NCBI RefSeq assembly: GCF_000380165.1
Contig: NZ_KB904693.1
Span: forward strand, 1 to 36,261
Direction: 5' to 3'
Source of the DNA: Wenjunlia vitaminophila DSM 41686
Lineage (GTDB): Bacteria > Actinomycetota > Actinomycetes > Streptomycetales > Streptomycetaceae
Length of the DNA: 36,261 nucleotides
Shown: positions 1 through 1,491 of the stretch, piece by piece
How positions within the stretch are numbered: the first letter of the stretch is position 1
Layout of the letters: every line of letters begins with the position of its first letter
The notes under the pieces: model-generated
The model's database searches: none
What the model saw: the letters and a program-made list of their open reading frames with translations, nothing else
What the model was told of the DNA's origin: nothing
Program-made: the position numbers and the translations under genes

Positions 1-92
1 CTGGCGCTGAGGGCGCAAGACCCCCGGGAGCGCTGCTCCCGGAGGCAGCCTGAGCCAGGAATCCCCTCCCTTCAGGGAGGGGAGGATTCAAA
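1..92 (+). mobile_element. IS200/IS605-type right end with omega-RNA-like hairpins (partial)
   Basis: Two compact hairpins lie back to back. An 8-bp perfect stem with a 3-nt loop spans 24-42 (CCGGGAGC / GCTCCCGG). An 8-bp stem with loop TTCA spans 63-82 (CCCCTCCC / GGGAGGGG). The block ends in GGATTCAA at 84-91. This arrangement, a terminal G/C hairpin closely followed by TTCAA, resembles right ends of IS605-family tnpB elements in actinomycetes, where the right end also encodes the 3' part of the TnpB guide RNA (omega RNA) and the guide is the flanking DNA. The tnpB gene itself would lie left of base 1 on the + strand and is not visible. No transposase is in view, so the assignment rests on the end structure alone. 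Confidence 0.6.
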
Positions 93-163
93 TCGACGGA
101 CCACTCCACCGGCCCGGCCGCGACCGGTGCGCTCGACCACCGCGGTTCGTTCACCGGCGATAA

Positions 164-180
164 CGATTTGTGCAAAATCG
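164..180. repeat. Inverted repeat upstream of lipoprotein gene
   Basis: A 6-5-6 inverted repeat, CGATTT-GTGCA-AAATCG, lies about 110 bp upstream of the lipoprotein start and could be an operator. The surrounding A/T content is higher than in the rest of this intergenic region, as expected near a promoter. I could not place a convincing -35/-10 pair. Confidence 0.35.
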
Positions 181-288
181 GTTCCGGATCGGGTCCAGGT
201 GCAACCGTCGGTGGGGTCCACCGGTCGTAGTCGTAAGACCGTCGGGGGGACCGCCCCACGTCGCTCATTTCTGAAGGGTGTTGTCGTG

Positions 289-1491
289 ATGCGTAGGACC
301 GTGACCGCTGTCGGCTGTGCCGCGGCCCTCACCGTGGGTGTCGTGGCCTGTGGCACCGTGGAGAACCTGAGCGCCGGCCAGAAGGTCTCCCGGGCCATGG
401 ACCGGCTGGTGGAAGGGGAGTCCCTGTCGGTGACGGTGGACCTGGAGTCCACGCCCGACCAGTTGATGGCCATGGTCACTGACTCCTCCGATCCCATGCC
501 CCCGGAAGCGGCTGACGTGTTGGCCAACAGCACGATCAAGTTGTCGGTGAAGGCCGACAAGCCGCTGAAGGACGCCAAGGAGTCCGACCTGGTCGCCGCC
601 GAGCTGGTGTTCGCCAAGGGCAACACCAACCTGTTCGAGCTGCGCGTGGTCGAGGAGACCGCCTACGTCCGCGCTGACCTCGAGGAGATCGCCGCGATCT
701 CCGGCGAGGAGATGCCCCCGGTGGAGACGATCAAGAGTGAGCTGCCCCCGGGGTCGGAGTTCGCCGAGCGGTTCCTCGACGGCGGCTGGGTCGCCATGGA
801 ACAGTCGGAACTCGAGAAGAGCAGCAAGATCGTGGAGGACTACACCGGCGAGGACACCGGTTGGGACTCCGAGTCCGCGCCCAGCCTGAGCGACTCGGCC
901 AAGGACAAGATCTTCGGCGCCGTCAAGCAGGCCCTCGGTCAGGGCGTGACGATCGAGGAGAAGGGCAAGAAGGACGGCACCGAGCACCTCCGGGTCAGCG
1001 CTCCCGCCCGGACCCTGCTCAACGGCCTGGTGGACAAGCTGAAGCCGCTGGAGAGCGAGATCCCCGGCGCCGAGCTGCCCAGCTCCTCCGACATCCAGGA
1101 CGTTCCCAACCGTCGGGTCGCGATGGACATGTTCCTCAAGGGCAAGGACCTGAAGAAGCTCACCGTCGACATGGCCCAGTTCGACGACGAGCTCAGGAGC
1201 GCGGGCAAGCTCCCGCTGTCCCTGTCGTTCGACAAGGGCGGCATGGTCTGGGCGCCCAAGGACGCCGTCAAGATCACGTCTGCGGACCTCGAGAGCCTGA
1301 TGAACGGCGCGGCCGGCAGCAACTACGACGACGGCGGCACGTTCGAGGACGACAACCCGTTCGGTGGCGACCCGGCCGACGACAACCCGTTCGGTGACGC
1401 GAGCCAGGACGCGGGCAACCCGTTCGACGCCACCTGGACGTCCGCGATGTCCAGCGCGTACCCGGGTCTGTCCCTGCTCGAGAGCGCCTGA
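289..1491 (+). CDS. Putative lipoprotein with C-terminal NPF-rich acidic repeats
   Basis: The product is about 400 aa and secreted. Positively charged MRRT is followed by a short hydrophobic stretch and a lipobox-like GVVAC, with Cys21 as the likely lipidated residue. It would therefore be anchored on the outer face of the cytoplasmic membrane. The ATG at 289 is preceded by GAAGGG at 273-278; a GTG at 286 has better spacing and would add one Val. The frame stays open far upstream, but sequence before 286 does not look like a signal peptide. The mature part is acidic, Lys/Glu/Ser-rich, without a catalytic motif I recognise. The C-terminus carries Asp-Asp-Asn-Pro-Phe-Gly repeats encoded by a 19-bp DNA repeat (1348-1366 and 1378-1396) plus a third NPF. 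The fold may be of the LppX/LprG lipid-carrier type, as may that of the lipoprotein at 13994, but this is inference. Confidence 0.85.
   Translation: MRRTVTAVGCAAALTVGVVACGTVENLSAGQKVSRAMDRLVEGESLSVTVDLESTPDQLMAMVTDSSDPMPPEAADVLANSTIKLSVKADKPLKDAKESDLVAAELVFAKGNTNLFELRVVEETAYVRADLEEIAAISGEEMPPVETIKSELPPGSEFAERFLDGGWVAMEQSELEKSSKIVEDYTGEDTGWDSESAPSLSDSAKDKIFGAVKQALGQGVTIEEKGKKDGTEHLRVSAPARTLLNGLVDKLKPLESEIPGAELPSSSDIQDVPNRRVAMDMFLKGKDLKKLTVDMAQFDDELRSAGKLPLSLSFDKGGMVWAPKDAVKITSADLESLMNGAAGSNYDDGGTFEDDNPFGGDPADDNPFGDASQDAGNPFDATWTSAMSSAYPGLSLLESA

Follow-up and report, generated by a model that had tools for sequence, protein, structure and literature searches.

A TnpB element right end with an omega-RNA-like fold at a contig edge in Wenjunlia vitaminophila

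The window, which is the whole stretch of 36,261 nucleotides analysed here, is contig C59 of the Wenjunlia vitaminophila DSM 41686 genome (assembly of 6.43 Mb in 111 contigs), taken from its first base. Base 1 is a contig edge and falls inside a tnpB element of the IS200/IS605 superfamily (IS1341-like), whose right end (RE) occupies window 1-91. The features at the locus are given below.

1..53, + strand: 3' end of the tnpB coding sequence, overlapping the RNA scaffold (base 1 is the second base of a codon, whole codons run from 3, stop TGA at 51-53)
1..58, + strand: nested stem, omega-RNA-like scaffold (1-5/54-58, 12-14/48-50, 21-31/35-45; from fold and covariation)
59..62, + strand: GAAT, candidate right guide tetranucleotide (GR) for a Y1 transposase (from sequence; same as the IS608 GR, PMC5934647)
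62..83, + strand: RE hairpin, subterminal palindrome (pairs 62-70/75-83; from fold and covariation)
88..91, + strand: TCAA, candidate right cleavage site (CR), with which the element ends (copies diverge there; same as the IS608 CR, PMC5934647)
92..107, + strand: putative guide of 16 nt in the host flank (from the boundary at 91; length taken from ISDra2, PMC8612924)
289..1491, + strand: host gene for a putative lipoprotein of 400 aa (open reading frame; insertion flank, outside the element)

The earlier note had described two tight hairpins within bases 1-91 and a TTCAA end, and both were recovered. Window 1-110 folds strongly (minimum free energy (MFE) -53.6 kcal/mol, z -2.55, 3 of 200 shuffles being as good), with the nested stem at 1-58 as the first hairpin and the plain hairpin at 62-83 as the second, and TTCAA is read from the sequence at 87-91. 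The MFE structure pairs 11-14 with 48-51, the structure counted below uses 12-14/48-50, and in the window the stem 21-31/35-45 is interrupted by a C-A mismatch (23/43). Across the whole window, Rfam at its gathering threshold returned three tRNAs and nothing else, and a promoter and terminator scan of window 1-400 found none.

The scaffold overlaps the end of a tnpB frame, which translates in the window as GAEGARPPGALLPEAA followed by the stop codon. Further full REs were found at three places in the same genome, on contigs C2, C81 and C72 (100%, 77% and 76% identity to window 1-91, respectively). The identical C2 copy begins to diverge from the window immediately after base 91. TCAA is likewise the end of the C81 and C72 copies, whose flanks differ beyond it, the C72 flank giving one extra common base. 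This sharp boundary turns the approximate guide start near 92 that had been proposed into an exact one, with base 91 as the last base of the element. Directly upstream of the RE, C2 and C72 encode PF07282 (Cas12f1-like_TNB; 27.5 and 29.8 bits against a Pfam cut-off of 26.3 bits, both domains being interrupted by contig ends), and on C81 the 71 bases preceding the RE are tnpB at 100% identity. The C2 tnpB frame stays open through the RE to the TGA equivalent to window 51-53, which supports the proposed identification as a tnpB right end.

The left part of such an element is present on C1, where a left end (LE) hairpin is followed by a divergent 52-aa open reading frame (Pfam Arc) and by a tnpB with PF01385 and PF07282, whose frame is open and keeps RuvC and zinc-finger motifs, N letters aside. 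These N letters would fit near-identical copies having been collapsed by the assembler. Six contigs (C1, C29, C32, C94, C17 and C80) carry an LE-side half at an end, and four (C59, C2, C81 and C72) have an RE within about 170 bases of an end, LE and RE counts thus being different; the contig break at the window start is likely due to repeat content.

Downstream of the boundary, the lipoprotein gene has a signal peptide judged by eye to end in ...VVACGT, no Pfam family, and matches in 108 of the 200 family genomes searched (own included). Two genomes of the genus, own included, were searched with the right-flank DNA, which had no close match in the other one, G001. In G001, the genes of the window are followed by those of the C80 end; its lipoprotein gene, missed in the region comparison, is known through a 47-residue match. 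Among 21 regions compared, what we take to be an amidohydrolase-like gene and yajQ occurred in the same three, on the expected side, and a presumed DinB-like gene beside the C80 left end occurred in none (these names, as well as AIM24-like, were assigned from the look of the sequences and not through a family search). When the C80 and C59 flanks were joined and compared by blastn with a G001 stretch, flank homology alone was returned and no base-level empty site. On the strength of this synteny the left side of the window is probably contig C80, which ends in an LE after GTTCAC, so that the donor site would probably read GTTCAC followed directly by ATCGACGG.

To set these copies in a wider frame, we used related loci from a scan of named genomes with 279 TnpB residues, namely the best 80 of 304 relatives (L082-L161), 75 of which are titled Streptomyces. 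A GAATC-hairpin-TCAA RE stands behind tnpB in 67 of these best 80 and is absent at 13, the presence of GAAT and TCAA being by construction since the search pattern demands both. The earlier note is hence supported on every testable point: a tnpB-like reading frame adjoins the RE in C2 and C72, and other copies of this end exist both in the genome itself, where their flanks diverge after TCAA, and in relatives. Of 74 related and sister TnpBs, 73 have the RuvC-I motif, 73 have RuvC-II and all 74 have the zinc finger, and RuvC-III was matched in 62 of 74 by a pattern made for this analysis. In the C1 sister and the related loci, LE and RE enclose tnpB, and L133 apart no Y1 match was seen: a single query, the C35 TnpA at E 0.01, had no match in 79 of the 80 related loci and a partial one in L133. 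Judged from the sister copies, the element is therefore of the IS1341 kind, with tnpB and no transposase gene. Lengths of 1383-1581 bp were found for 54 related elements. As a separate observation, 13 related loci (including L116, L119, L129, L132 and L133) have longer REs of 113-152 nt, several of which carry an additional GAATCCCC-like stretch ahead of the terminal hairpin.

The fold is conserved among these ends. Alignment A1 holds 57 REs in 55 distinct rows, those of the window, C81 and C72 together with 54 simple-length REs of related loci; the identical C2 copy, the 13 longer REs and the 13 loci lacking the pattern lie outside it. With the 28-pair structure, 96.0% of cells are paired (shuffles give 81.2%, and sliding the partners gives no more than 58.4%), both-side changes occur in 21 of the 28 pairs (199 such cells against 65.7 in shuffles), and covariation amounts to 0.375 against 0.132. 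None of 500 shuffles was as high on any of the five measures, both controls leaning somewhat toward the structure, which was taken from the window fold and applied to related rows. RNAalifold alone gave 22 pairs on A1, 16 of them with both-side changes, and inner-helix pairs such as GC:32 CG:22 would be difficult to account for without a conserved fold. A covariance model built from A1 matches 12 of the 41 genomes searched (own one counted); in the own genome it finds 8 places, with the four REs at 107-111 bits and the next at 59.7 bits. This next place is the degenerate RE of an internally deleted element (C2:262445-263027, L033), which has GAAA instead of GAAT and keeps its left end and ribbon-helix-helix region, most of tnpB being gone.

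The left ends bear a common motif. In all nine C1-type left hairpins of the own genome, the shared sequence starts after TCAC. A model that combined seven LEs of the own genome with three loci chosen by eye among the 80 matched 65 of the 80 related loci, leaving 15 without a match, and TCAC stands 15-26 nt ahead of the hairpin in 56 of the 65 and is missing from nine; without the three eye-picked loci the count is 53 of 62. The next commonest tetramers, CACC (51) and ACCG (28), overlap TCAC. The left guide, read from the model register, is GATG in 39 of the 56 TCAC loci, GAGG in 7 and GGTG in 4, with six further variants seen in one locus apiece. Hairpins resembling left ends after TCAC and lacking an adjoining tnpB were also seen on C72 (L007:2089-2137) and C23 (L036:1501-1549), possibly minimal or deleted elements.

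Guide tetranucleotides thus match cleavage sites at the subterminal hairpins, at the RE as in IS608 and at the LE mostly as GATG with TCAC. The left guide of IS608 uses its bases +16 and +17 to pair with bases -3 and -4 of the target (PMC5934647), and at these contact positions GATG on TCAC gives G-C and A-T. The genome has two Y1 TnpA genes, and the TnpA-bearing elements on C35 (L018 and L019; two elements, read by eye) have a CTAC site and the left guide AGTG, giving A-T and G-C, so that both contact positions are swapped together relative to the TCAC/GATG elements. This end code of the IS608 type points to a Y1 transposase rather than a serine recombinase (IS607 family), and since the tetranucleotides are read by DNA guide bases, the C35 TnpA could move such elements in trans.

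Together with the boundary at 91, TCAC ahead of the left ends suggests window 92-107 as the guide and TCAC as the motif flanking the target (TAM). The sole exact match of the 16-nt sequence in the genome is window 92-107 itself, and two-mismatch places number six, against four for a reversed control pattern, which is near chance. Of 293 genomes of the order, 203 contain the uninterrupted target of the sister element on C72, TCAC followed by AGCTTCTCCTCNGANGCCTG; they belong to 2 of 10 genera, and the own genome is not among them. These empty sites support both the boundary and the placement of TCAC beside the guide. For the window copy no empty site was found: TCAC joined to the initial 12 bases of the guide, searched for in 61 relatives, gave one-mismatch matches only, one of them the RE itself.

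Four elements, the C72 copy (L007:258 onward) and L095, L100 and L106, lie at one gene end with the same or a near-same guide, the first 16 flank bases of C72 being the same as those of L095 and L100 and one mismatch from those of L106. L100 and L106 have TCAC at the left and the guide at the right of the element. On the TnpB tree, which does not include the C72 tnpB, L095 is close to L106 with L100 apart, and the RE variants of L095 and L100 differ; more than one arrival at this gene end, or replacement, is likely.

Overall, we consider it highly probable that the window begins in the RE of a tnpB element inserted after TCAC, with an omega-RNA scaffold and a guide at 92-107, whose TnpB would cut the rejoined donor site after excision in trans. 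According to this model, the element would have inserted 3' of TCAC, about 200 bp upstream of the host gene, and would carry an intact tnpB beyond the contig edge. The tnpB transcript would read through the RE into host DNA, and its 3' part, after processing, would form the nested stem and hairpin and be bound by TnpB as omega-RNA, the final ~16 nt (window 92-107) acting as the guide. Excision by a Y1 transposase supplied in trans would rejoin TCAC and guide at the donor site, where TnpB would cut, and the sister chromosome would then serve as repair template to bring the element back.

The same end could instead be an inert remnant, that is, a leftover transposition end in which the RE serves as a DNA hairpin for TnpA and the copy makes no working TnpB complex. 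The tnpB of the window copy lies outside the assembly and a degenerate sister, L033, does exist, which would be in keeping with such a fate; against this, the window RE does not differ from that of C2, keeps GAAT and TCAA where the deleted copy has GAAA, and scores 110.9 bits as compared to its 59.7, the C1 sister retains its open tnpB, and the stem at 1-58, which would be unneeded in a bare DNA end, covaries as well. We regard this explanation as improbable. Far less credible is that the RE supplies the guide-RNA end for a domesticated TnpB devoid of nuclease activity (TldR-like), which would regulate a gene instead of cutting. TldRs have lost the RuvC catalytic residues, whereas 73 of the 74 related TnpBs have RuvC-I and RuvC-II; the position upstream of a host gene would suit regulation, but the guide has neither a second exact match nor an excess of two-mismatch places in the genome, and a scan of three syntenic regions (L074, L170 and L171) showed no RE at the equivalent place. 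An ordinary intergenic structure (terminator or REP-like repeat) with no relation to TnpB, although GC-rich intergenic hairpins are common in such genomes, is contradicted by the sister copies and can practically be dismissed, as the structure overlaps a tnpB frame, stands behind tnpB in related loci with flanks that differ past the boundary, and no terminator-like site occurs in window 1-400.

With this RE a known kind of system, TnpB/omega-RNA, gains a further clear example, and many relatives carry in addition a small regulator-like gene. A ribbon-helix-helix (RHH, Pfam Arc) gene lies upstream of, and divergent to, tnpB in 42 of the best 80 of 304 related loci, as it does on C1 (L016) between LE and tnpB. 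The RHH label, carried by 40 of the 74 rows of the TnpB tree, is clustered on it yet scattered (12 changes against 24.6 in shuffles; the bootstrap is not settled). Uncorrected pN and pS are 0.21 and 0.39 for RHH (820 pairs from 41 frames, pN below pS in 97% of pairs) and 0.12 and 0.36 for TnpB (25 of 38 frames); by these values the RHH gene is under purifying selection. An operator-like repeat (GGTGTC or GACACC, N3-6, GACAC), a motif picked after inspecting the sequences, occurs near the tnpB start in 17 of the 42 RHH loci and in none of the 38 others; it is missing from the remaining 25 and from the own copies C1, C29, C32 and C94.

These results raise the possibility, which we put forward tentatively and hold to be somewhat less probable than its opposite, that the actinobacterial elements represent a regulated TnpB transposon, in which an RHH protein encoded in the usual place of the transposase would repress tnpB and omega-RNA and a resident Y1 TnpA would move the elements in trans. 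If RHH does repress tnpB, this would show how transposase-less elements restrain a chromosomal nuclease. In a search of literature that mostly excluded subscription papers, no listed title described a pairing of TnpB with a ribbon-helix-helix, Arc-like or CopG protein; given this scope, we make no claim of priority. The elements further offer a compact TnpB and RNA scaffold with a predicted TCAC motif, a covariation-backed fold and several natural guides, and the four at one conserved gene end (C72 and three Streptomyces loci) are a natural case in which to ask if TnpB guides bring elements to one and the same place in different species.

In ISDra2 of Deinococcus radiodurans, the reRNA/omega-RNA spans the tnpB 3' end, the RE and a flanking stretch of about 16 nt; the footprint left by excision is cut by TnpB beside a motif, which adjoins the guide and is also the insertion site (PMC8612924). 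The present element resembles it in its structured tnpB 3' end and RE and in the abutting flank that would serve as a guide of ~16 nt of a putative RNA, as well as in a predicted guide-adjacent motif that coincides with the insertion site, and differs in having TCAC instead of TTGAT and sister elements without tnpA (PMC8612924). With IS608 of Helicobacter pylori it shares an identical GAAT and TCAA at the RE and, apparently, an insertion point 3' of a tetranucleotide that the left guide reads, whereas most related left ends combine TCAC with GATG where IS608 has TTAC with AAAG (PMC5934647). Unlike in the IS605 group, a Y1 tnpA gene within the element was not found in 79 of the 80 related loci (single query). 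In gene content the related elements resemble the IS1341 group, with TnpB between hairpin ends and no transposase gene; that group is described, in the available part of the source, as TnpB only and of a single structure, whereas many of the elements considered here add a divergent ribbon-helix-helix gene (PMC9956272).
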